Assembly (NCBI GenBank): GCA_001275005.1
Contig: JWZX01001513.1
Location: forward strand, 1-20,483
Origin: Chrysochromulina tobinii
Taxonomy: Eukaryota; Haptophyta; Prymnesiales; Chrysochromulinaceae
Length of the DNA: 20,483 nucleotides
Direction: 5' to 3'
Shown: in pieces, positions 3,210 through 19,020 of the stretch
Position numbering within the stretch: the first letter of the stretch is position 1
Layout: each line of letters opens with the position of its first letter
Notes under the pieces: model-generated
What the model was told of the DNA's origin: nothing
Database searches by the model: none
Seen by the model: only the letters and a program-made list of their open reading frames with translations
Program-made: the position numbers and the translations under genes

Positions 3210-6200
3210 AGCAACGATGGCGATGAGGAGGAGGAGGGCGCGGCACGCAGCCAGCGGAAGCGACGAGTGCCAGCGCGAGCGCCCCAGGGCAAGGGCAAGG
3301 CCAATGTCGGCAAGGCGCGTCCGGCCGACAGCGACGAGGAGGATGCGGACGACGCTGAGGAATACGTCGACTCGGACGACGACGATGGCAAGAGGAAGCG
3401 CAAAGGGCGGGGCGGCGGCGGCGGCGGCGGCAGAGGGCGTAGCGGCGGCGGAGGTGGTTCGCGGGCCCAGAGCGTGGTTGAGTTGGCCAAGGGGGAGCAG
3501 GACCTGAGTGACACAGCGGGCTTCAAGCAAGGCGAGAAGGCACTCACTAGGCACGTGATCGACGACTTTGTCGACACCCTCGGCCATGGTGCGCTTGATG
3601 AGGGCGTGGAGAGCCTCGTCACAGATCAGGCGAGTGCCGCTGATGGCCACTGATTGCCGCTGATTGCCACCACAGATGACCAAGGATGACCTCTGAGCCC
3701 CACTGATTGTCACTGAGTGCCACTCATTGCCACTCGTGTCCTCATGACGGATCAGTGGTCGCGGCTGATGCCGCTGCTCGAGGCCGCCGTGCGAGAGGGC
3801 GATGTGCCGCCCGACCTGAAGCTGCATACGCACTGCTCGGGCACCGACTGCATCGCGATCGCGCTCGCGGCGGGCGCGAGCCTGGCCCGTCGGAGCGGGC
3901 TGCCCCATTTCGCGCCCAAGCACCTGCTCTCGTGTGAGAATGAGCCGTTTAAGCAGGCGTACCTGGCGCGCAACTTCCCGGACGTGCTGCTCTCGCCAGA
4001 TGTCTCGCTGCTCGCGGAGACGCCGACGGGCGCGCGCTTCTCGACTGTGTTCCGAGGTGAGGCGATCGTTCCGCCGTGCGACCTCCTCGTGGGGGGCAGC
4101 TCGTGCAAGGACTTTTCGAACCTCAAGATGAAGTACCACGTCGGCGGCATCGAGGACGAGGGCACCTCCGGCACCACCTTCCGCGGCATCGTCGAGAACA
4201 TGTTCAAGGACGGTGCCAACGGACCGAAGCTCGTTCTCCTCGAGAACGTGGAGTCCGCTCCCTGGCACAAGATGGAAGAGTACATTAACGGGCGTGTGCT
4301 CCTCGCCACCATCAACGACAAGCTGCGCGGCTCAGGCAAGTGCTCCACGAGCGGCGACGCCGACGAGGAGGACGAGGACGCGAGGGGCGGCGCCAAAAAG
4401 GGCGCCAAGGCGGAGGAGCTCACATTCAAGCTCGACGGCTCGGGTGCCTTCTTGAGCGTCGACTCGTCGCCAGCGCACGTGGGCGTGCGCGAGGGTGTGC
4501 GGCTCCTCGGCGTGGCAGACGACATCGACGCCAAGGTGCGCCCGTTTGGCAAGCAGGTGCTCAAGGCGCTCGGGAAGCGGTGTACGCTCTCGCAGCTCGC
4601 CAAGGCGGCAGGCCTCGACATGAGCGGCAAGAAGCTCACGGGCAAGCGGCTGGCCGAGGTCAAGGCGAGCGGTCGTCACCAGGTGGACCAGTACTACGAG
4701 AATACGAGCGTGCTCGTCTTTGAGATGCCGTGCGAGTACCGCACGCAGCGCGTCAAGGTGGACACGAAAGAGTTTGGGCTGCCGCAGACGCGCAGCCGCT
4801 ACTACATGTTTGCGTGGCGCGTCGACGCCTTCCCGGGCGTGCCCCATCGCGACATTGGCGAGGGCTGGGTCCGACTCGTTGAGGGGCTCAAGGCACCTCT
4901 GCTCTATCCAGTCTCCGACTTCCTGCTGAGCGACGACCACGACATTGCGCGCCGCTACCGCGACATGCTGCAGGGGCGACCGGGAGAGCAGTTCGCCATG
5001 CACAAGGGCAAGGGCGACTTTTACTCGGACACTACACTCAAGCAGGTCAAGGGCGAGGAGAGGGGTGTCAAGTCGTACCAGCCTTCGTTCGATCTCGAGG
5101 TCAATCTCGGCTTCAAGCAAGGGGCAGGGATCCCCAAGTTTGCGCGCCCCTTTACCCATTGGGGCCCCAATGGCGTGCTGGCGCTGCGCTCGCCGTACGA
5201 GTGGACCGAGTACATTCGGTGCCTCGGCCGGCGCGCCGTCGACCTGATCGACGCGTGTTCCGTCAAAGTGGCCGAGGCGCATGTAGACGCGCTGCACCAG
5301 ATGGTCATCTGGGACATTTCGCAGAACATCCACCTGGTGGCGTCGCTCAACCGGCCGGGCACCTCGTGCTGCATCACGCCCGGCGGCAAGAATTACCTCT
5401 CGAGCCTCGGCCGCCCGATGTTTGGGTACGAGAAGCTGCTGCTGCAAGGCATCCCGCCCGACAAGCTGCTCCTCGGTCGAGAGACGGAGGTCCAGCTCTC
5501 CGACCTCGCGGGCAATGCCATGAGCATGCCTGTTGTGAGTGCCGCCGTGCTGGCCGCCCTGTGCGTCGGCGCCTTCTGCCGCAAGCTCCAGGCGCTCGAG
5601 ATCGAGCCGACAGCCGACGATGCGCTCGCGCGCGTGCTCGCTGCTGCGAGCGCGACGGCCGCGGCGGGCGGCAGCGGCGCCCACAGTGGCGCCCAAAACG
5701 GCGCCCCAAACGGCGCGGGCAAGGCCAAGAAGGCGAACAAGAGCAACCAGGCCGATGGTGCGGCGGCCTCGAACGCGAAGAGCTCGGCAGCGGCGGTGGC
5801 GGCCCAGAAGGCGCCCATGAAGCCGCTGCTTGCGCCGGCGCCGACAGCAAGTGACCGCAACCTGCTCGAGGTGCTGCGCGAGCTCTGTGCCGACACGGCG
5901 CTCCTCGATCGCGTGGTCGCCTCAAGCATCCTGTGCGCGTGCGAGACGAGCGGGCGCATCTCCGCCGATTCGATCCTCCAGTGCTCCGAGTGCATGTGCT
6001 CGGTCTGCTGTGGGTGCACCATCCGGTTTGAGGCCTCGTCCCATGCGCTGTGTCCCGCGTGCCCGGCGCAGCGCCCTCGGCTGCCGTTTGAATGCGAGCG
6101 CGAGCTTCGCGCGCGCCTACCCGCCGCGCTGCGCCTCTCGCTGGGCGATCTCGCGGGCGAGCTCGATGCTGACGTGGCCGCATGCCTCGCCGACGGGCTC

Positions 6201-9200
6201 GAGTTCCGATTGGCTCGCCTCGTGCGCGCGCGCGGCGCGTGGCAGCTCTGGTACTGCGCGTACTCGGAGGGCGCTGGCAGCTCGCTGGCGGACCTGCGGA
6301 TCAATCTCGGTTCGATCTCGACGAGACGCGGCGCGTGCGCGCTTCTCTACTCGCTCGACAAGGCGCGTCGGAAAGTGCGCGGCAAGGCGGAGCCCATCGC
6401 CCGCCTCGTGCTGTACGAGGGCGCCGTCGCGGGCGCTTGGGAGCGGCGGGCAGATGCAGCCGAGCTCCGGCTCCATCTCGCGGGCTCGGAGCCCACGATC
6501 TCGTGGCGAGCTGCGCTCGAGCTCACGAAGCTGCAGCACGAGCGCTGGCCCGGGCGCCTCGAGGTGCGCGCGAGCGGCGCCGTCCCGAGCGGCCCGAGCG
6601 GCGCGGGACGCCAGGACGGCGCTCGCCAGGACGGCGCCCGCCAGGACGGCGCCCGCCAGGGCGGCGTTCGCCAGGGCGGCGCTCGCCAGGACGGCGCCAG
6701 CCCTACTACGGCCGCGCGCCTCGTCGAAGGCACGTATGAGCGCCAGGGCTGCAAGGGCTCGTGTGCCCGGGACGCGCTCTATCGGCGCGTTGAGCCGGCG
6801 CCGACGGCGTCGCATCCGCTCACATGGCTCATCTACCTGCCCGAGCCGAACCATAATGGTCCGTGCCATCCGGCCATCTCCCTCTCGCCGAGCTACGGCG
6901 AGGGCGCCTCGCATGCGCTGCTCGATCTGCCGCCCGACTGGCTGCCGGACCATGCGCTCGGCACGGCGCTCGGCCCCGAGGGCGCCGAGGTGGGCGCCGC
7001 GGTGAAGCGGCGCAAGACGGGTGGGGGCAGCGGCGAGAGCGGCGGCGCTGAGAGTGGTGGCGGCGCGTGCGACGTTGATGCGTTCGTGCGCGTGTGGACG
7101 GCGACGACGCTCAGCTTCACAGTGCCCTCCGAGACCACGACTGTGAAGGATGGTCACGAGGCGACCGTCGTGTGCACAGTGGGTGGGTTGAGTCCGGCGA
7201 CCGCGAGCATGATGATCTCTCACGCGCTCCAGGACGAGCCCGGCAAGCTCGGCAGCGGCGGCGGCGGCGGCGGCGGCGGCGGCAGGGCGGCGGGAGTGGA
7301 GGGCGTCGTGTGGCTTCCTATCAGCCTCATGCGCGTCTCGAGCTCGGTCATCGAGCGGCGGCTGGCTGAGGCCATCGCACGCCCTCTGCTGGCCTGGAGT
7401 GCCCGGGGAGGCCTCGAGCGGCTCGTGAGCTGGCGCCCACTACGGCGCGCGGCGGGTGAGCCTGCGTGGGGCGCGTGCCCGAAGAGCACGCCGGCGCGCC
7501 CTGCCGAGAATTGGAGCGCCGAGGGCTTCCGAAGTTATGACGTGGCCGAGTCCAACCAATTCGAACGCGCCTTGCGCGAGCGCGCGCACTTTTGGGAGTC
7601 GCATGTGCATCGCGCCTCGGGCGAGGTGCGCCTCTCGGCGAACCCCACAGTGGCCGCACACCGCGCGGCCGAGCAGCTCATGCGCCACCGTGCGCAAGAC
7701 ACGCGCGGCGCGCTCACTGTGGAATGGCGCTGCCTCGAGCACGCCGAGCCGCCGCCGCGCTCCCTGCAGGGTGAGTTCACCATCCCGAGCTCGAAGGACT
7801 ATGAGCCCGAGAGCCAGAGCGACCTGCTAGGGGACGTGTGGGACGCGACGAAGCCGCTCTTTGACCGACAGGCGCGCCCTCACCCGCACCCAAACCCTAG
7901 CCTGCACCCTAGCCCGATCCCTACCTAACCCGAACCCTAGCCTGCACCTCTAGCCCTTTCCCTAGCCTGCACCCTAGCCCGATCCCTAACCCGAACCCTA
8001 ATCCTGAGCCCCGCTCTTTGGCCGACAGGCGCGCGCGCTCGCACGGATGCGTACCATCGAGGCGGGGGGCGTCTGCATGGACGAGGTGGAGTTCCATGAC
8101 GAAACTCTCCCGCACGTGGGCTTTACACTCGAGGCACGGGCCACGTACCGGTGCCCGCTCGGCGGCGGCGTCCTCGCTGACGTCATGGGCGGCGGCAAGA
8201 CGGTAACGGCGCTCGCGCTCATTGCGGCAGGTCGCCAGCGCGCGGCCGAAGGTCTACCCAAGGGCTCGCCACATCAGCTCAAGGCGACGCTGGTGGTGGC
8301 GCCGCCCATCCTGCTCCAGCAGTGGGATGACGAGCGCAAGAAGTTCACCGGCGACAAGCTGAGGAGCATCGTGATCCGATCTCCCTCGGCGCTCAAGCAG
8401 GTGACGAACCCCACTGATGGCGTCTGATTGCGCCTGATTGGTATCGTGATCCGATCTCCCTCGGCGCTCAAGCAGGTGACGAACCCCACTGATGGCGTCT
8501 GATTGCGCCTGATTGGTATCGTGATCCGATCTCCCTCGGCGCTCAAGCAGGTGAGCCTCGAGCAGATGCGCAAGGCCGACTTGATCCTTGTGGTGAGTGA
8601 TCTGCTGGGCGTGGACAAGAAGGAGGCACTCGACCCGAAGGACAAGGAGCTTTATCTCTCGCACCTCGCCTCGGTCGTGGGCCTCGACGCCGAGCTGCCC
8701 GATATGGTCCGGTACAACGTGCGCCAGGCGGGTGGCGAGCCCGACGTCTTCGAGGGCATCTGGCTGCCCGGCTTTGGCGCCAACCCGTACGCGGGCACCA
8801 ATGGGCGCCAGTGCGACCGGCACGCGGCAGCCCTCTTCACGAAGCGGTACCAGGATGCGGTGGACGCGCTGCGTCAGAAGCGATTCCCCGACTCGGCCAA
8901 GGGCGTGCCCCTCGAGTACTTTGTGTACGAGCGCGTCATCGTCGACGAGTGCCACGTGCCCATCTGCCTCGCCTCCTCGGCCAAGGACCACGTCAACGGC
9001 ATCTCGACCGGCGGCGAGTCCAAGTTCGAAAAGGCGGCGCTCTCCTCCAACCGCTCCTCGTGCGCCGTGCGCGAGCTCCTCGGCGTCTCGACGCCCGATG
9101 TGAGCAAGCGGCCGCTGCGCTGGCGGCGGGCAGTTTGGGGGCTGACCGGTACGCCGCTCCTGACGAGCGCCACGCGCATCACCGAGCTCGCCTCCATGTG

Positions 9201-10038
9201 CGCGGCGGCCTACACGTGCGGCGGGTCCGCGCACTGGCGCACGATGGAGCGTGCCAGCTTGCGCGACGTCTTCCTACGCTACCACGAGGCATGCACGTCG
9301 CGCTTGTACACGAGCCACTGCGTGCAGGCCGCGCAGCAGTACATCCAGCTCGCGATCCAGCGCAACAAGGCCGATGAGTTCGTAGGGGTCGAGTGCACGC
9401 CCGAGATCGTCGCCGTCGAGGTGGGGGCTGCTGAGGCGCCCGTCGTGTGGGGAAAGTCCTGGGCGGTACTGGAGGAGTCGAAGCTGGAGGAGGCAGCTGA
9501 GACGGCGGCCAAGGCGCGCTCGCGCCAGGCAGCTCTGCAGCAGCTCGTGGGCCTGCTGCAGGCCGAGGAGCCGGGCAGCAAGCTCGTCGTCTTCAGCCCG
9601 AGCGGCGCCGCCTTCGACGCCGCGCGTGCGGCCCTCGAGAGAGCGGGCGTCCCCGCCGCGTGCGTGCTCGAGGGTGACGACGCGCACAACCAGGCGACGC
9701 TCCACCGCTTCACGCAGCTGCGGATGGGCGTCGCGACGCGCGACCCGACCGACCCGCTCATTCTGCTCCTCTCCTTTGAGCACGCAGCCGGCCTCAACCT
9801 GCAGTACGTGTGCCACCACGTCGTGCTGTACGCGCCGCTCTGGGCGCAGGACACTGTGGCAGCGGTCGCCAACGAGCAGCAGGCGATCGGGCGTGTCTTT
9901 CGGTACGGACAGACCAAGAACGTGACCGTCCATCGTCTGCTCATGAAACGGGACGGCACCGGCGCCATGACCGTCGACGAGCACCTGTTCGCCCTCAACA
10001 CCAATGAGAACACGATCAAGGCCGCGACGAATATTTGA
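2472..10038 (+). CDS. DNMT5: DNMT5-type DNA cytosine-C5 methyltransferase with Tudor-like, RING-like and SNF2 ATPase domains (4 exons)
   Basis: Exons 2472-3629, 3756-7871, 8029-8400 and 8551-10038 join in phase 0 to 2377 residues. I chose ATG 2472 (context CCACAATGC) because the longer frame opens only with TTG. Residues about 10-70 may be Tudor-like. About 105-158 is Tudor-like (WIGRRV...LWHVLHDDGDEEDL). Then comes a Lys/Ser, poly-Asp and RGG-rich linker. The methyltransferase shows motif I HCSGTD (~411), motif IV GGSSCKDFS (~499, catalytic Cys), motif VI LLENVES (~547), motif VIII QTRSR (~730) and motif X LAGNAM (~970). A Cys cluster with CSEC and CPAC lies at ~1112-1152. The SNF2 part has GGGKT (~1810), DECH (~2014), LTGTP (~2078) and QAIGRVFRYGQ (~2325). 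Known DNMT5 enzymes use ATP to maintain CG methylation; the fungal enzyme has a chromodomain where this one has Tudor-like modules. Exon joins are inferred from frame and domain continuity, without transcript evidence. Confidence 0.9.
3168..3209. repeat. (GAC)14 microsatellite coding poly-Asp
   Basis: Fourteen GAC triplets in frame in exon 1 of the DNMT5 gene encode a poly-Asp run that continues into a mixed Asp/Glu acidic stretch. They lie in the linker between the Tudor-like and methyltransferase domains and are expected to vary in length between strains. Confidence 0.9.
3630..3755 (+). other. Intron 1 of the DNMT5 gene (GC-AG, 126 bp, repeat-bounded)
   Basis: Exon 1 frame ends GATCAG|GCGAGT (3629/3630) and exon 2 resumes GATCAG|TGGTCG (3755/3756). 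Removal joins ...SLVTDQ to WSRLMPLLEA... in phase 0. The 15 nt before each splice point (3615-3629 and 3741-3755) are similar, 12 of 15 identical. Inside are imperfect 10-bp repeats of CTGATTGCC type. An internal CAG near 3675 would leave an in-frame TGA, so it is unlikely to be the acceptor. Confidence 0.8.
6609..6698 (+). repeat. 15-bp coding minisatellite, six copies (RQDGA/RQGGA)
   Basis: Six in-frame copies of a 15-bp unit beginning CGCCAG encode Arg-Gln-Asp/Gly-Gly-Ala/Val. They sit between the Cys-rich module and the SNF2 part of the DNMT5 protein, so they are probably a flexible linker whose copy number can vary. Differences between copies are mostly single bases. Confidence 0.9.
7251..7284. 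repeat. (GGC)n microsatellite coding poly-Gly
   Basis: A run of GGC triplets in exon 2 of the DNMT5 gene encodes about ten consecutive Gly. A similar shorter Gly/Arg tract is coded at about 3408-3460. Both are low-complexity linkers and G-rich enough to fold. Confidence 0.85.
7872..8028 (+). other. Intron 2 of the DNMT5 gene (GC-AG, 157 bp) with telomere-like CCCTAA/CCCTAG repeats
   Basis: The donor CAG|GCGCGC (7871/7872) and acceptor CAG|GCGCGC (8028/8029) lie at the same point inside a 24-nt direct repeat (7854-7877 and 8011-8034, one mismatch). Removal joins KPLFDRQ to ARALARMRT in phase 0 and links the methyltransferase exon to the SNF2 exon. The body is C-rich degenerate CCCTAA/CCCTAG/CCCGAT units with a longer repeat order inside. 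No GT donor in a matching phase keeps the DATKPLFDRQ segment. The exact boundary within the repeat is ambiguous. Confidence 0.75.
8368..8554 (+). repeat. 75-bp tandem repeat, two exact copies plus 37 nt of a third, spanning exon 3/intron 3/exon 4
   Basis: Units start at 8368, 8443 and 8518. The first two are identical over 75 nt and the third matches for 37 nt, to 8554. The first 33 nt of each unit encode the exon segment IVIRSPSALKQ and the rest is intron-like. Because 75 is a multiple of 3 the frame is kept, but each full unit carries an in-frame TGA (8425 and 8500). Confidence 0.95.
8401..8550 (+). other. Intron 3 of the DNMT5 gene (GT-AG, 150 bp = two repeat units)
   Basis: The donor AAGCAG|GTGACG (8400/8401) and acceptor AAGCAG|GTGAGC (8550/8551) are at the same point in successive repeat copies. 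Removing exactly 150 bp gives ...IRSPSALKQ-VSLEQMRKADLILVV, which matches the expected SNF2 spacing between motif Ia and the following strand. Removing only one 75-bp unit would leave a stop, so both must go. Confidence 0.82.
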
Positions 10039-10815: not shown

Positions 10816-13800
10816 TCAGAGCTCCAAGTGGGAGGGGGCGCCTCGCCAAGCGTTTCGGAGGGCGCGCTCGGCTTGCTCATCTAGTTTATTGTGGCAGAGG
10901 CTGCGCACAGAGAGAGAGGGAAGGGGCATCATCAGGTGGCAAGGAGCAATGCGGAGCGTCAGATGGCAGGATATGCAAGGAAGGAGCAAAGAGCAGTGGA
11001 GAGCATCCGATGGCAGGATGCAAGGAAGAAGTGCTCCTTTTGAACCACATGCAGCATGCGGGAACGCAGAGTAGAGGCGCAGGGCTGCATCACACAAGAG
11101 CAGGCAGCGGCAGAGCACTGCTTTGGACAAGAGCGACGGAGCACGCGACGTGCGCAAGTGTTGGCACGTCGCCAGGGATTTTGGTCCAGAGTTTTTGGCC
11201 CCTCAAGTCCCTCAAGTTTGAGGCGAAACGTACCTCATTTTGGTCAGCGCGCCATTAACGCGCAGAGCGTCGGCAATCGCTGTGATGCCCTCTGCAGTAT
11301 AAGTTCCCTTGCCAAGATAATCGAGGCCGCACAGCTGGTTGGAGCTGAGGTTGAGGCTCGTCAGCCCGCCGTTGACGCCAAGCATCTTGGCCACATGCTT
11401 GGCACCTGCTGACCCTCCGATGTTGCTGCCACTGCCACGATGAGGGCTGTTGCTGATGTCAAGCTCCTTGAGCGTCTTGTTCTGTTCTAGAGCCTCGCAG
11501 ATGGCCTTGGTGCCCTCCTCCCCCAACTCGTTTTCCGCGAGTGATAATTTGGTCAGCCCGCCCGTGACAACGGCCTGTGACAGGTCTGACGCCAGCAGGA
11601 TCGCATCAGGCGGCTTGAGGCCCTGGTTGCGGAAGTCAGCGGTGGTCTGGTCGCGCTGGAAGTCAGCGGTGGTCTGGTCGCGCTGGATGCCGCAGAGCGA
11701 GATGCCCTTCTGCATGGCGACCTCAGCGAGCATCTTCGCAGACTCCGCATTAAGCTCATTGCCCAGAAGGTTGATCACCGTCAGCCCGCCTGTGACGGCC
11801 ACCATAGCCGCCACAGCGTTTGCTCCAACTGGACCGATGCCGTTGTACATGAAGTTGAGCGACGCGAGCTTCGTCTCTTTGTTGCTCTGGATGGCCTCGC
11901 AGACTGCGCTTACGCCCTCATCCTTGAGGAGGTTAGAGGACAAATTCAGGGCCGTCAGCGCGCCTGTGACGGCCACCATGGCCGCCACTGACTTTGCTCC
12001 CACTGGACCGATGCAGTTCTTGCCCATGTTGAGCGACGCGAGCTTGGTCTCCTTGTTACTCCGGATGGCCTCGCAGATTGCACTTACGCCCTCATCATTG
12101 AGGTAGTTGCAGGACAAATTCAGGGCCGTCAGCTCGCCATTAACGCGCAGGGCGTCGGCGAGTGCAGTGATGCCCTCTGCAGTGTAGGTGCCACCGAAGA
12201 GGGTCACTCCGCAGAGTGCGTTGTTGGAGAGGTCCAGGCTCGTCAGCCCGCCTGTGACAGCTACCATAGCCGCCACAGCGTTTGCTCCAACTGTACCGAT
12301 ATCGTTGTAATAGAAGTTGAGCGACGCGAGCTTGGTCTCCTTGTTGCTCTGGATAGCCGCGCAGACTGCGCTTACGCCCTCATCCTTGAGGCAGTTAGAG
12401 GACAAATCCAGGGCCGTCAGCGCGCCGTTGACGCCAAGCATCTTGGCCACATGCTTGGCACCTGCTGACCCTCCGATGTTGTCATTGTACTCGCCGCCGC
12501 TGATGTCAAGCTCCTTGAGCGTCCTGTTCTGTTCCAGTGCCTCGCAGATGGCTTTGGTGCCCTCCTCCATCAAGTTGTTGATGGCGAGCGACAGCTTCGT
12601 CAGCCCGCCATTGACGCGCAGGGCGTCGGCGATTGCAGTGATGCCCTCTGCGGTGTAAGTTCCTCTTCCACGACGATCGAGGCCGCACAGCTGGTTGGAG
12701 CTGAGGTTGAGGCTCGTCAGCACGCCGTTAATGCGCAGGGCGTCGGCGATTGCAGTGATGCCCTCTGCAGTGTAGGTGCCGCTGACGCCGCCGAAGGATT
12801 GGACCACTCCGCAGAGTGCGTTTTCGGAGAGGTTGATGCTCGTCAGCCCGCCATTGACGCCAAGCATCTTGGCCACATGCTTGGCACCTGCTGACCCTCC
12901 GATGTTGCCTTTGTACCCGCCGCTGATGTCAAGCTCCTTGAGCGTCGTGTTCTGTTCTAGTGCCTCGCAGATGGCTTTGGTGCCCACCTCCTCCAACTTG
13001 TTTTGGGCGAGCGACAGCTTCGTCAGCGCGCCATTGACGCGTACCATCTTGGCCACGTGCTTGGCTCCTGCTGAACCACCAGTGTTGCTGCCACAATGAT
13101 CTCCGCTGATATCGAGCTCCTTGAGCGTCGTGTTCTGTTCTAGTGCCTTGCAGATGGATTTGGTGCCTGCCTCCTCCAACTTGTTTTGGGCGAGCGACAG
13201 CTTCGTCAGCGCGACGTTGACACAAAGCATATTGGCAACATGCTTGGCTCCTGCTGTCCCTTCACTGATATCAAGCTCCTTAAGCGTCTTGTTCTGTTCA
13301 AGTGCCTCGCAGATGGCCTTGGTGCCCTCCTCCCCCAAATTGTTGTCGGCGAGCGACATTTTGGTCAGCGCGCCCATGACAGGTATGAGTCCAGCCACGA
13401 CCATGCCTCCCTCGTCTCCGACGTCTTTCCGCTTCAGGTCCAGCTTCGTGAGCGAGTTGGCGCGCATCTCCTTGATCGGGATCTCGTTGAACATCTCGAT
13501 CTTGAGGTTGCAGAGGACAGCGGCTGCGAGCTGCACAGCGCCGTCGCCCGCGATGTTGTTGCGGCGGACGTCAACGCGTGTCAGCGCGCCATTAGCAGCG
13601 AGTGCTGGAGCTAGAGCTGCTGCCCCCTCTGCACCAAGCCAGTTGTGGCTAAGACTGCGCAACAAACGAGAGCAAACGAGAGCATTCAACTGGCAATTAG
13701 CAAGTTAGTGGCTGCTACGAATCAAGTTTGTCAGATTTTGAGCGTCAAACTTACTCGATGTTCGTCAGCGCGCCGCTAGCACCAATGCCAATCAACAATG

Positions 13801-16800
13801 TGCGTGCATTGTCGCCTGTGATGCCTTGGTCGGACAGGTCGGCGGCGCCCACAACACCAATCAGGAGTATCCCAAGGGCATCCAAGCTTTCTGGTGACGT
13901 CCCCAGCAAGCCCTTCTTCTCCTCCTCCATCCGCAACGCTTCGCCACGCTGAACGCTGGCAACCGCCCCATCGAGCACCTGATGAGATGGCCAGCTGCCA
14001 AAGCCAAAGGGTGGACGAGAGCGCGGCTTCTGCAGCTTCTTCTCCCGATCGCCAGTAAAGCCCGGGAAAGCGAACCCACGTGGTCCACCGCATCCGTCTT
14101 TAAGCTGCTTGGCAAGATGTGCAAGGCCCACGAGCATCTTTGCGGGGAGGATCGTCGAAGCCTTGAGCTCAAAACGCCGCAGCTTCGTCGTCCCCCTCCG
14201 GCTGAACACCTCCTTCTCGAGCATATGAAGCCCCAGCTCCGTCACCAGGTTGTCGCGCAGCGTGAGGTGCGTCACCATGCTGGAGACGTAGAGGGGGAAG
14301 CACAATTGGAAATCTTCATCTGTCTGCCGGCACCCATGGACCGCAAGGTGGACATCAGATTCTTTGACTTCAGGTCCTTTGGGGCTGACAATTAATTTGT
14401 CTAGCCCCGATTTCTTAACTCCGTCCTTTGCGTCGAAGACGTGCCGCGCCAGAATGCGCCCCATGTCTGTTGTGAGCTCCCTCGGAAGCTGCTGCAGGAG
14501 CAAGGCTATGCACGTGGTCTCGCTCAGAGCGAGAGCGACAACTGCGGCACACACATCGGCCATGGGGTCGCTTTGGTCGTGCTGACGGCGGACCAGGGAA
14601 GCGAGCATGGTGTCGACATTTGTCTCATGCAGCTTCAAGCACGGCACGAGAGCGTTGGTGATTGTGCGCGCCGTGCCTCGCGCGTGGTCCCACATCTGTC
14701 GCAACCGTGAGGGCGCTTCCACAAGCACCTGGCCCTCTACATCGCAGATTCCGATGGCAACGAGTCGCGCTGATGGTGCACGGCTGAGCACGAGCTTTGC
14801 TTGGCCAGAGAGCCGCTTCATCGCCTGGCTGCTCGCCTTCTCCACTGGCTCCTTCGATGCAAGTGTGATGAGGAACACTTGGACACTCGCCCTTGGGTCG
14901 CAAAGGGCCTTCAGCAGCGCAAGCGCCGGGCGGATTGCAGCACGCGCCGCCCCATCCTCAGAGTCTGCAACGAAGGAGATGCCATCTAAGAGCACCGTCT
15001 TGAGCTGCGGTCGGCGCAACCACGTCTCGATCCCGCGCGCTGCATCCTGCCCGAGCGTGTTGTGCGAGAGATCAAGCCGCACAATGGACCTGCTCTGCTG
15101 CAGCCCCGCGCGAAACAGCGCGTCGAGCACCGACTGCGGCACATGATGGAGCGTGAGGTGCTTCAGGGAGCGCAGGGTCACCAGCGCGTGTGTGGACGGC
15201 AACTCCTTCACCTGAAACTCCTTTGCCTTAATGTCAATCTCATTGCGCGGCCCGGCCAGATGAAGCTGCTCAATGGAGCGCCCGGTGCCAAGTGCACTGA
15301 GCATAACGCTCCACTGGCGCGGCTCTAGCTGAAAGCCTTCGAGGCGCAAGATGCGTAGGCTCGAGGTCACGCCGAGAACATCATGAATGAATACTTCAGG
15401 AATTGCGCGCTCGTTCTGGTCGCCGAGCAGCAGCCGCCTCTTGTCATCAACGCCAATCAACGCCAACGTGTCTCCTTCGAGCTTTTTGAGCCGCTCCTTT
15501 AGCTGCGCCCAGTCGTCGAGTATGGCCAACTCGCGCACATGGCTCTGCGCCAGAGCGCCCGACAGGAGCGCGAGTTCGTTGCCCGACACTTGGCGCTTTG
15601 CAAAGCGAAGGCACCGCAGCTTCTCGTTGCCCGCGAGCGCCTCGCCCACCTGCTTGAACATGTCGATGCCCAGATTGTCAGGGACGCTGCGATAATCGAC
15701 CGAAGGCCACGAGCGCAGCACGAGCCGGAAGGGCACCTTATCGATCGAGGTGAGGCTTGCCAACTCGACCACGACGCTGACCATGGACTGATGGTACGCC
15801 TGCGCCGTGTCTCTGAGGTAGTAGAAGGTCTGATAGAGCTGGCCGACGGATGCGAGGAGCGACGCGAGGAGGGTGTAGTCATCAAAGGGTTTGCCGCGCC
15901 CCGCCGTGGTGTAGACGAGGTAACCCAGCTGGATGATGGCCTGGGGTGCTGACTCGAGCGCCGGCTCGAGCACGCGGCGCAGGTTCTCGTAGGCGCTGCT
16001 GAACGCCCCCGGCGTAGGTTGGTGGGGGAAGAAGATCAGGGTGAGGACCTCAACCAGAATCAGCAATGGCACGCCAATGGGAAGCGTGGCGATCGTGCAA
16101 AGCATGAACCAAGCTGTGTAGCCGAGGCGGAAGAGAGATTTCTCGAAGTTCTCGGAGTCCCTCATGCTTTTTGAGCAGCCGCACCTTGTGAGCAGACCAG
16201 ACACACAGCGGATCGACCGCGTTGCCAGCATCCCGAGCAGAACTCCAGGAAGCTCGACGACCACTATCATCGGAAGCATGCAGAGCAGAAACGCGATAAA
16301 AGACGCTGTTTGGTGCGATTCAGACCAAGAAGAGGCGCCCAGCCAGTCGCTAAGCACAGCACGCACGAATAAGGTGAACAACAGAAAGCCCAAGTCCTCA
16401 TAGATCTTAAAATCATATTGTTCGTATAAATACTCATAGATCTCAGTATAAATCGAGTTGTCAGCCGGCGTCTTGAGCACGTGCATGCCGAGGGCGAGCC
16501 AGAGCACGACCCAGCTGGCCAAGATGAAGATGATCGTGAGGCTGAAGAAGACGCGACGCACCTCGCCAGTGTCCCCGTTAAAGGTGCACTCGCCGCGCAC
16601 GAAGCCGTCGATGCTCGCCACCAGCTGCGCGTCGTTCGTGCACAGCCCGGCTGCGACAACAATGTCCGAGATCAAGTCAAAGATCGGCAGGAAGCGGTGG
16701 CGCAGGAAGAAGCCCATGAACGCGAGAGCAGAGGCGGCCGAGACGCTCGCAATCTCCTCCTTCAGCTTCAGCACCACACCCTCGGTCGACACGGCCGCGC

Positions 16801-19020
16801 CCTCGCCGTTGCCCTCGGCAAGGTCCTTGAGACCGTCGGCGCCCGCCATCAAGTAGTCTTGCGCCTGCTCCGCCAAGAATTGAGCTTGTTCGTGGGGCAT
16901 GCCAAGAGCTTCAAGTTTGCGCGCCGCTTCCTCCCGGGCACGTGTCAGCCCATCCTCCAGAAGCTCCTGCGCGAGCTCCTGCCCTCTATCCACGGCCTGC
17001 TTCAGCACCTTGTTCAGCAGCGCCTCTGGGCTGCGCACTAGCTCCGCCGCGATCTCTTCGTCAGGCATCATCGTCAGCACCTCGCGAACTATCCACACGA
17101 CGCGCGCATCGAAACTGCGCTGCTGAAGGCGCTCGCTGATCCAGTGCAACGTCATGGACTTGGCACAGCGCAAGGCCGCATCACCACCGCCGCCGTGAAA
17201 TTTAGCGGCAAAGAAGCTGCTGGCGAGCTTTGGCGGGTCGTATAGGGCCGCCAGCAGTTTATCGCCGTCAAGCAGAGCCTCGAGCTCTTCGATGGCCTGA
17301 TCCACGTCTTCGTCTTTCGCGCCGTACTCGACTAACTTGTGTCTTATCATCCGAACCAGCACGTCCTTCATCTCCGTCGCTTTCTCGCGGCTGCCCTGCT
17401 TTGCGGCGCGCAGCACCAGATCAAACATGATCGCCGGCAGCGCGTGCGGCTTTGCGGTGGCGAGAGTGATGATTGCTGGCTCCGTCAGCATTGCGTCTCT
17501 CGGCGGCGTCACATGAGAGGATGCGCCACCGCAGAGCGATTCAAGCTCCCCGACGAGCAGGCCCACGCACGAGTTGACGAGAAACTCGGTGGTGCTGCCG
17601 CCCGCAAGTGCCTTGGGGATGTGTGGACGGATGGTCGTTGCTAGCACCTCTTTCACGGTCGATTGAGTGAATGCCTTCTTCAGCTCCTCAGTCGAGCAGT
17701 GGGACAGCAGCACCGTGGCAAATGCGAGGAACTGCGACGAGACGGAGCCGCGCGAGGCGGCAGCGGCTTCGAAGTGAGCGGCCGAGAGTTTCTCGAGGTG
17801 GAGCGCACTGACCAGGTTTTGCACATCGTCGATGGGCACTGCCATTGTTTCTTGGAGCCCGTATTCAAGCGTGGCCCTAAGCAGGGACTGAATTAGCGTC
17901 GTCGAGGTGGACGGCAACTTCTTCACCACTTCTTTGCCAACATCTTCTTGAATGAGCTGTGCACGGCTGAGCACGACGGTCCGAACAAGCACCCAGGCGA
18001 AAGAAAAGAGCGCTCCGGCGTGCTTGCCGTCGCTGTCGAGGCACGCGAGAATCATGTCGCCAACCCCTGTCTGAGCATCTAACTTCGTGATCGCCGCAGC
18101 AGCCTTCTCGATGGCCGACTTGAAAACGCCCTGCAACTTCTCTCGAAGGTGGGTGTCGTTAAACGGAAGGCGCTCTAGCAAGGCACGCAGTAGCTCTGGC
18201 ACGGCTCTCGTCGCCAGCTCCTGCACCAGCTTTTCGTGGTCGCCCTCCTGCTGCAACGCTAAGCGCAGCACCTGCGACAAGGGTCGAGATATCCGAGGCA
18301 CAGCTCAGGTGCCAGACATCCGACGGCATCAGAGCGCGAGCGCAGCCATTCGCGCGCTCGGACGCTCACCTTTTCGGCCATGCGCTCGGGGTGGAGGGCG
18401 AGCTCGCGCAGCGCACTGTCGGGCAGCTTCTCGACGAGCGTGTCGATCTTGTCGAGATGCTCTTTCTCGATCACTTTGCCGAGGAGGTCATGCGTGCAAC
18501 GCGTGGCCAGAGCGCGCACCAATTCAGGGGCTTCGTCGTAGACATCGTAGGCGAGCGAGAGGGCATGCGCCGGAGTCTGCAGGACCTTTTGGAACTCATC
18601 CTCGTCAAGCATTTCTGCGAAGGCCGCCGCTAGGCGCTCAAGTTGCTTGGGCTCAAGCTTGAGAGTGAGCTTCTCGAGGGCCGACTGTATCAGCGTGTTC
18701 TTGAGCTTCAGCAGGATATCCTCCACCAGCCCCGAGGAGCGCAGAGAGTCGTGCATGGAGGCAAGGGCCTCGAAAAGGTCTGAACCCGCTATCTTGATAG
18801 ATTTCGCCCAGTCCGCCAAGAATCGCGCTTGATCTGGGGGCACGCCAAGAGCTTCCAGTTCGGCCAGCACGTCCGGCTCGGCCGGCTGGTTAGGAGCCTG
18901 CCCTGCTACCTCTGGCGTCTCCTCGGTTTCGTTCCGCGTCGACGCAAGGCTGCGTGTGGAGCCAGCCCCGATGGTACAAGTATCACTGTCCGCCGCTGCC
19001 TCTACGTCAACGGGGGCCAT
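10816..19020 (-). CDS. Giant XK-related-like multipass membrane protein fused to a leucine-rich repeat array (4 exons)
   Basis: Exons 19020-18370, 18271-13755, 13654-11234 and 10900-10816 join to 7674 nt (2558 codons with stop). Each junction restores a motif: MAEK-VLRLAL; GALTNI-D-LSHNWLG; GALTKM-S-LCHNKLDEQ. ATG 19020 is the first ATG in a frame that otherwise opens with GTG. Residues 1-720 are helical and soluble-looking. About 725-1040 holds 7-8 hydrophobic segments, including FLPIFDLISDIVVAAG (~744) and LESAPQAIIQL (~988), patterns like those of XK-related scramblases (D-x-x-x-D helix, E-x-x-P-Q helix). From about 1050 LRRs appear, divergent at first and then regular 28-30-residue LxxLxLxxN repeats of the ribonuclease-inhibitor/NLR class to the end, closing with a degenerate repeat. 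No NACHT or Walker A motif was seen. By family analogy XKR proteins move lipids across the plasma membrane; scramblase activity and ligand sensing here are inference. Confidence 0.85.
10901..11233 (-). other. Intron 3 of the XKR-like/LRR gene (GT-AG, 333 bp)
   Basis: On the minus strand the donor AAATGAG|GTACGT (11234/11233) is phase 2. The acceptor is preceded by a strong polypyrimidine tract (CCCTCTCTCTCTGTGCGCAG, 10901-10920). Joining AG to C makes Ser and continues a correct LRR (LTKM-S-LCHNKLDEQAERAL) to a stop at 10816. Confidence 0.88.
10926..11034. repeat. Imperfect 47-bp repeat inside intron 3 of the LRR gene
   Basis: Units with the shared core GATGGCAGGAT and GCAAGGAAG start at 10954 and 11001 (47 nt apart), with a more degraded relative at about 10926. 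They lie wholly within the intron and show no coding role. Confidence 0.7.
11240..13650 (-). repeat. Tandem LRR-coding repeat array with near-identical units
   Basis: On the minus strand, modules recur many times. AGAKHVAKMLGVNG-like modules lie near 13235, 13055, 12880, 12455 and 11395. TYTAEGITAIADALR modules lie near 12770, 12650, 12180 and 11290. TLKELDIS and NKETKLASLN modules also recur. Several are nearly identical at the nucleotide level over more than 40 bp, which indicates recent duplication or gene conversion. The larger period is about two LRRs (170-180 bp). Confidence 0.9.
11631..11684 (-). repeat. 27-bp exact tandem duplication inside the LRR exon
   Basis: The units 11631-11657 and 11658-11684 are identical and in frame. 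They duplicate nine codons (QRDQTTADF) within a non-LRR insert that begins SLCGI and ends with DAILLASDL. The insert interrupts the LRR array near its C-terminal end. Confidence 0.92.
13655..13754 (-). other. Intron 2 of the XKR-like/LRR gene (GT-AG, 100 bp)
   Basis: Minus-strand donor ATCGA|GTAAGT (13755/13754) is phase 2. The acceptor follows TCGTTTGTTGCGCAG (ends 13655). The splice creates Asp and completes the LRR LTNI-D-LSHNWLGAEG. Without splicing the upstream frame stops at once in TAA within the donor. Confidence 0.9.
18272..18369 (-). other. Intron 1 of the XKR-like/LRR gene (GT-AG, 98 bp)
   Basis: Minus-strand donor GAAAAG|GTGAGC (18370/18369) and acceptor CTTGTCGCAG|GTGCTG (18272/18271) are both phase 0. 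The join yields MAEK-VLRLALQQEGD in a continuous helical region. Both flanking frames end or begin only within this interval. Unlike the DNMT5 introns, it shows no direct repeat at its ends. Confidence 0.87.

Follow-up and report, generated by a model that had tools for sequence, protein, structure and literature searches.

Can a single protein chain join leucine-rich repeats (LRRs) of the NLR kind to a membrane domain resembling that of lipid scramblases? The question is raised by a gene in a 20,483-nucleotide stretch of DNA from the haptophyte Chrysochromulina tobinii (GenBank assembly GCA_001275005.1, contig JWZX01001513.1), referred to here in its full length as the window. The window is part of contig C622 of an assembly of 53.15 Mb in 2,253 contigs, and 58 matches to light-harvesting proteins in the same genome identify the host as a photosynthetic eukaryote, an alga. 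XK-related (XKR) proteins are lipid scramblases of dying animal cells, and in plant and animal LRR receptors a single chain carries membrane helices as well as LRRs.

Gene structure and its support

A single gene was rebuilt from the DNA of the minus strand (19020-10816), with four exons and three GT-AG introns. It encodes exactly 2,557 residues, in agreement with the single protein across three introns that the initial annotation had proposed.

Exon 1, 18370..19020, minus strand: residues 1-217, beginning with the ATG at 19018-19020; without a Pfam family above cut-off
Intron 1, 18272..18369, minus strand: 98 bp, GT-AG; acceptor-side text also present in P0002
Exon 2, 13755..18271, minus strand: residues 218-1722 plus two bases; rest of the N-terminal region, membrane domain and first LRR block
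Intron 2, 13655..13754, minus strand: 100 bp, GT-AG; predicted protein P0002 unbroken here
Exon 3, 11234..13654, minus strand: main LRR array; LRR_6 at E 2.4e-45
Intron 3, 10901..11233, minus strand: 333 bp, GT-AG
Exon 4, 10816..10900, minus strand: final LRR and C-terminus (RNAWRGAPSHLEL), TGA at 10816-10818

LRR consensus is restored at joins 2 and 3 (LTNI/DLSHNWLG and LTKM/SLCHNKLD, where the slash marks the join), as had been claimed for two of the three joins. P0002, a predicted relative of 1,851 residues, is 64% identical over the searched region and 61% identical to exon 2. It runs from an N-terminal part through a membrane domain and into LRR_6 repeats, unbroken at the site of intron 2, a continuity read from the predicted protein. 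The string LSQVLR is common to P0002 and to the unspliced reading of the window through the intron-1 acceptor. A last exon similar to exon 4 (LDxQAxxALRNAWRGAPSHL) was found at 75-85% identity in at least three of the 26 loci compared (L013, L019 and L020), and among these the L020 copy adjoins NACHT.

All three introns are inferred from DNA, and the fusion could in principle be a gene-model error in which the LRR exons and the membrane part are two adjacent genes. Such an error is highly improbable, given that P0002, itself a predicted protein, passes unbroken from one part to the other, that the membrane domain and an LRR block lie together within exon 2, and that the consensus is restored across GT-AG joins. 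The two-gene and mis-splicing readings were dropped on the continuity of P0002 and the recurrence of the last exon. As predicted from genomic sequence, one gene almost certainly encodes the whole protein.

Organization of the protein

The N-terminal region is followed by the membrane domain and then by the repeats:

N-terminal region, 16766..19020, minus strand: residues 1-719, split by intron 1; helical-looking by eye
Membrane domain, 15668..16765, minus strand: residues 720-1085, XKR-like
Alpha1-like helix, 16664..16678, minus strand: carries D749 and D753, which motif spacing rather than a profile alignment suggests as equivalents of Xkr8 D26 and D30
Alpha4-like helix, 15911..15985, minus strand: NLRRVLEPALESAPQAIIQL, with R983, E986, E990 and Q994 corresponding to human Xkr8 R134, E137, E141 and Q145
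Alpha5-like helix, 15797..15877, minus strand: residues 1016-1042, bounds set by eye
First LRR block, 14708..15739, minus strand: residues about 1062-1405, immediately following the membrane helices; a beta/alpha solenoid in the predicted model

No Pfam family exceeds its cut-off in residues 1-719, and comparison of the N-terminal region with itself reveals no internal repeats. Residues 52-107 (window 18700-18867) resemble residues 474-528 of P0002 (50%, E 1e-10), which sit just upstream of the P0002 membrane domain, perhaps a trace of an old internal duplication.

Seven to eight hydrophobic segments had been counted in the initial annotation. This number was revised to five to seven, because five strong hydropathy peaks (residues 744-965) pass 1.4 and the weaker alpha4 and alpha5 stay below it. 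The two motifs quoted there, FDLISDIVVAAG and LESAPQAIIQL, are present at residues 748-759 and 989-999. Between alpha2 and alpha4 there are additional hydrophobic segments, and the LRRs begin directly after alpha5. The flanks before TM1 and after alpha5 are positive and the first loop, which carries C779, is acidic, suggesting that both ends of the protein are cytosolic. A relaxed pattern finds no P-loop in the whole protein, and a Pfam scan finds no NACHT, NB-ARC, kinase or TIR domain, bearing out the earlier statement that no nucleotide-binding switch is visible. In genome searches in which the best candidates were scored, the membrane domain, the N-terminal part of exon 2 and the first LRR block each match only themselves.

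The repeat arrays and the NACHT genes of the genome

The LRRs are of the ribonuclease-inhibitor type, with LRR_6 repeats and, as predicted for the first block, alternating beta and alpha elements. The model of the first block has a mean pLDDT of 53; most ten-residue blocks are at 66-86 with dips, in alternating strands and helices, and the remainder of the model (about residues 1410-1722) is below 50. Foldseek with this model gives 52 matches at E <= 0.001, and those listed are mainly CARMIL, NLRPs, ribonuclease inhibitors and other LRR proteins, with whole-model TM-scores of 0.16-0.32. A match of the first block to AAA_25 (E 0.0013, below cut-off) was rejected, given that it sits on LRR sequence in a protein without a P-loop.

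The main array (about residues 1690-2557) matches Pfam LRR_6 at E 2.4e-45. Its best matches in the PDB are LRRC34, LRR proteins of doublet microtubules and ribonuclease inhibitors (1.2e-23), with several NLRPs also found. SpoU_sub_bind, DUF2202 and LRR_R13L1-DRL21 also exceed their Pfam cut-offs in the exon-3 array, and the first two were taken as LRR look-alikes. Searched against the genome at E <= 1e-10, the array family has 205 matches, one of them the array itself, and among the matches listed short blocks are up to 80-90% identical. Inside the LRR exon, at window 11778-12138 and 12840-13256, the DNA is tandemly repeated in units of 174 and 183 bp with 84-86% matches, and from these repeats the array looks as if it grows by recombination.

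NACHT has 42 matches in the genome at E <= 0.01, 28 of them above the family cut-off, including five that reach it only with their in-frame neighbours; the same profile also matches all 14 control genomes, above cut-off in three. A NACHT relative and the array family share one strand at four of the loci examined: L008 (contig C577), L009 (C1485), L020 (C713) and L029 (C1008). C577 and C1485 carry the P-loop-like AGPASGKT and APPAAGKT, followed by LLLLDGLDEAG. An FG/FGG-rich stretch precedes NACHT in L008. The window protein shares with these NACHT-LRR (NLR) genes the same LRR array family, with the array of C577 an unusual linker, NLKIEMFNEIPIKEMRA, and with C713 a similar last exon. Unlike them, it has no NACHT and no P-loop, and a membrane domain stands in their place.

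When 13 LRR open frames were scanned, NACHT was found in two (L008 above and L009 below cut-off), BRCT with SAP in one and ankyrin repeats in one. The other nine contain LRR families and otherwise sub-threshold matches, except for SpoU_sub_bind above its cut-off within the LRRs of L014; DUF3140 exceeds its cut-off inside the LRRs of L009. The array family thus occurs in one open frame with BRCT and SAP (L010, 1693-5487) and in another with ankyrin repeats (L011, 3810-7772), and given such varied partners it looks like a module. The initial description of the array as NLR-style is strengthened by its family lying beside NACHT at four loci and by the shared linker and last exon, and the LRRs of the window protein are very probably of the NLR kind.

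Comparison of the membrane domain with XK-related proteins

Whole-domain searches do not retrieve the XKR family. XK-related is not among the Pfam matches of the whole protein or the whole domain of the window protein and its relatives, a consensus typed by eye matches no Pfam family, and whole-domain searches of the PDB give nothing at E <= 10. With a short profile, the sole PDB match is DAD1 (E 0.36). Pfam searches with the best-conserved 72 residues (972-1043, alpha4-alpha5) match XK-related in three of five members, with a best E of 0.008 and an E of 0.022 for the window, and XK-related is the only Pfam family matched by more than one member. P0005 matches at 0.028, and P0003 and P0004 do not match; two of the three matching members, the window and P0002, are 89% identical over this stretch. 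The score of the window segment alone is 14.2 bits, below the curated cut-off of 24.8 bits for XK-related (PF09815). True XKR segments, used as controls, reach 1e-22 to 1e-23, and nothing is matched by the window segment in reverse. Chance matches of similar size do occur, namely of the XKR8 segment to the unrelated EamA (0.03) and of one alpha4-alpha5 member to PhoR (0.12).

The alpha1-alpha2 stretch matches XKR in Pfam in none of five members, one of which matches TOM6p at 0.058. Searches of the genome with XK-related and with rat XKR9 gave no match; they missed the window itself and neither had a positive control, so that they are uninformative on absence. Searches of viral contigs and of prokaryote genome contigs gave no relative. 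In these comparisons P0001 is the window's own protein, and P0007 (97% identical over 17% of the query) and P0008 were left unaligned. P0008, which has FDMVSTSS where the others have FDxxSD and an apparent frame-shift afterwards, was also left out of the residue tables.

Profiles of four family members were compared by hhalign with the solved XKR8 (7DCE), XKR9 (7P14) and XKR4 (9BOJ). The helix LRRVLEPALESAPQ falls on alpha4 of XKR8 with a score of 31.1 and a probability of 12.6%; a global alignment of the same profiles has a probability of 0.02%. The score compares with a mean of 15.5 (s.d. 2.7, maximum 27.7) for 200 column shuffles that preserve hydropathy, a maximum of 23.8 for 100 free shuffles and 11.3 for the reversed profile. 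For alpha4-alpha5 alone the score is 30.75 (probability 70%) against 11.6 +/- 2.5 for the shuffles (maximum 19.2), none of 200 reaching it. For alpha1-alpha2 the score of 16.1 was reached by four of 200 shuffles, and the alignment covers the beginning of TM2 and misses the D-x3-D helix. Comparison of the second XKR repeat with the domain by hhalign gave nothing above background. The motif had been noticed before testing, and these scores are therefore confirmation of a suggested match and no blind discovery.

Structure prediction does not add to this. AlphaFold2 on six sequences of the membrane domain gave an unusable model with a pLDDT of 45. With this model Foldseek found nothing at E <= 0.001, and VIA-align returned helical pieces, with no XKR among the 50 rows listed. 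The predicted model and the searches made with it are evidence neither for nor against an XKR fold.

The residues of the scrambling path provide a separate comparison. In mouse Xkr8, replacement by alanine of D26, D30, K134 (R134 in human), E137, E141 or R183 markedly reduces phosphatidylserine exposure, as described in the relevant passage of PMC8500837. Five of these six residues have counterparts in the window protein, in the right order, and R183 is without a clear one. R983, E986, E990 and Q994 are kept in all five aligned members that cover alpha4, and D749 and D753 in all five that cover alpha1; no profile aligns the helix of D749 and D753 to XKR alpha1, and its equivalence with D26 and D30 rests on spacing. 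In the window and loci L008-L023, which together amount to 335,718 residues when translated, the loose pattern [RK]-x2-E-x3-E-x3-Q occurs four times and a strict version with [STG]-x-P-Q once, in the window itself. The resemblance to XKR put forward in the initial annotation is thus upheld for alpha4-alpha5 and the matched path residues; it is not for the whole domain, for alpha1-alpha2 or for the second repeat.

A neighbouring gene

A plus-strand gene at window 3717-10038 encodes a C-5 cytosine methylase domain (E 3.5e-6), then an SNF2-related domain (E 1e-10), together with a helicase C-terminus that stays below threshold, a domain order reminiscent of DNMT5. Within it, at 8368-8554 (plus strand), a 75-bp unit is present in 2.5 copies at 100% identity, with AAGCAG/GT in each unit. 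A putative intron at 8401-8550, which consists of two units and begins with GT and ends with AG, would remove in-frame stops and join LKQ/VSLEQMRK. Its sequence suggests an intron that arose through tandem duplication, a route to new introns named in PMC4974935.

Interpretation and alternatives

The membrane domain is best read as related to the first repeat of XK-related scramblases but divergent from it, and judged by its sequence the domain is probably, if not securely, homologous to XKR. The two repeats of XKR proteins are structurally related, and each comprises four segments that span the membrane plus a helix that is partly inserted. The window domain is like XKR in the sequence of alpha4-alpha5 and in the R-x2-E-x3-E-x3-Q motif of the Xkr8 scrambling path and, as far as spacing shows, in the D-x3-D motif of that path; it is unlike XKR in its sub-threshold similarity, its extra segments between alpha2 and alpha4, its one recognisable repeat and its fusion to LRRs. 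Because the similarity is sub-threshold and the second repeat is unrecognised, the domain is called XKR-like only and is placed outside formal membership of PF09815. That the protein as a whole joins an NLR-type LRR array to a divergent XKR-like membrane effector and lacks a nucleotide switch is plausible, and we hold it to be slightly short of probable.

A mechanism can be proposed on this basis. Both ends of the protein would face the cytosol, and the LRRs may bind a ligand or a stress-altered protein, or may mask the membrane domain at rest; as they adjoin that domain, they could keep it shut until ligand binds. Binding would then relieve the inhibition, by analogy with the removal of the C-terminal tail in animal XKR9, which has two related repeats and a caspase-cleaved tail and whose C-terminus is said in PMC8298096 to inhibit it. 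Lipid headgroups would cross along an acidic path formed by D749, D753, E986 and E990, and an inner-leaflet lipid so exposed might serve as a damage or death signal. Only one XKR-type repeat is recognisable, and the working unit would therefore have to be dimeric or draw on the additional hydrophobic segments. Sensor-gated scrambling of this kind, which is argued by analogy, is a tentative proposal. The fullest form of the idea, a switch-free algal immune receptor with NLR-class LRRs and a single-repeat XKR-type scramblase in which recognition itself flips lipids, seems rather unlikely.

Two other readings were weighed, each of which we regard as fairly unlikely. The membrane domain may belong to another polytopic family, be it a channel, a transporter or something new, such that its ESxPQ helix would reflect convergence or very ancient kinship and the protein would be an LRR-gated channel or transporter. 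The failure of whole-domain searches and of alpha1-alpha2 to match XKR, the extra hydrophobic segments, the second repeat that hhalign does not find, chance matches of like E (EamA, 0.03) and the unusable predicted fold all favour such a family. Against it, XK-related is the sole Pfam family to recur in matches of the best-conserved stretch, the shuffles fall short of the profile score, and five of the six path residues are matched in order. The protein may instead have a housekeeping role in scrambling lipids or shaping membranes, with the LRRs as an assembly scaffold and not as a danger sensor. Such LRRs match PDB proteins that are not immune (LRRC34, DRC5, radial spoke protein 15 and RanGAP), some of them axonemal; the membrane domain, the N-terminal part of exon 2 and the first LRR block are single in the genome among the best candidates scored; and exon 2 shares 61% identity with P0002. 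A scaffold is harder to reconcile with the C-terminal array and last exon, which belong to an expanded LRR family found beside NACHT, and with the 174- and 183-bp DNA repeats, whose 84-86% matches would fit recombining recognition arrays. 

Novelty and significance

Unlike plant and animal LRR receptors, the window protein has several membrane segments, and its LRRs come after them and are probably cytosolic. In a 2010 survey, the relevant passage of PMC2939053 counts zero LRR receptors in the haptophyte Emiliania huxleyi. In the open-licence literature we found no description of LRRs combined with an XKR-like domain, nor was the combination described in the best-ranked part of that literature on NACHT and NLR proteins in algae and haptophytes. 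To our knowledge, NLR-type recognition and XKR-type lipid exposure have so far been separate systems. What would be new is an NLR-type LRR protein in which a scramblase-like membrane domain, here XKR-like, replaces the switch.

If the reading with an XKR-like effector is true, NLR-type recognition would be joined to XKR-type lipid exposure in one chain, in a unicellular alga, and the protein would make it possible to test directly whether NLR repeats serve algae in sensing infection or damage, with exposed lipid as the signal. It would also be a candidate for an XKR fold built from one repeat. If the single-repeat reading is true, XKR scramblases may descend from an ancestor with one repeat, a form still working as a dimer, and NLR LRR exons may have been swapped onto membrane effectors in algae.
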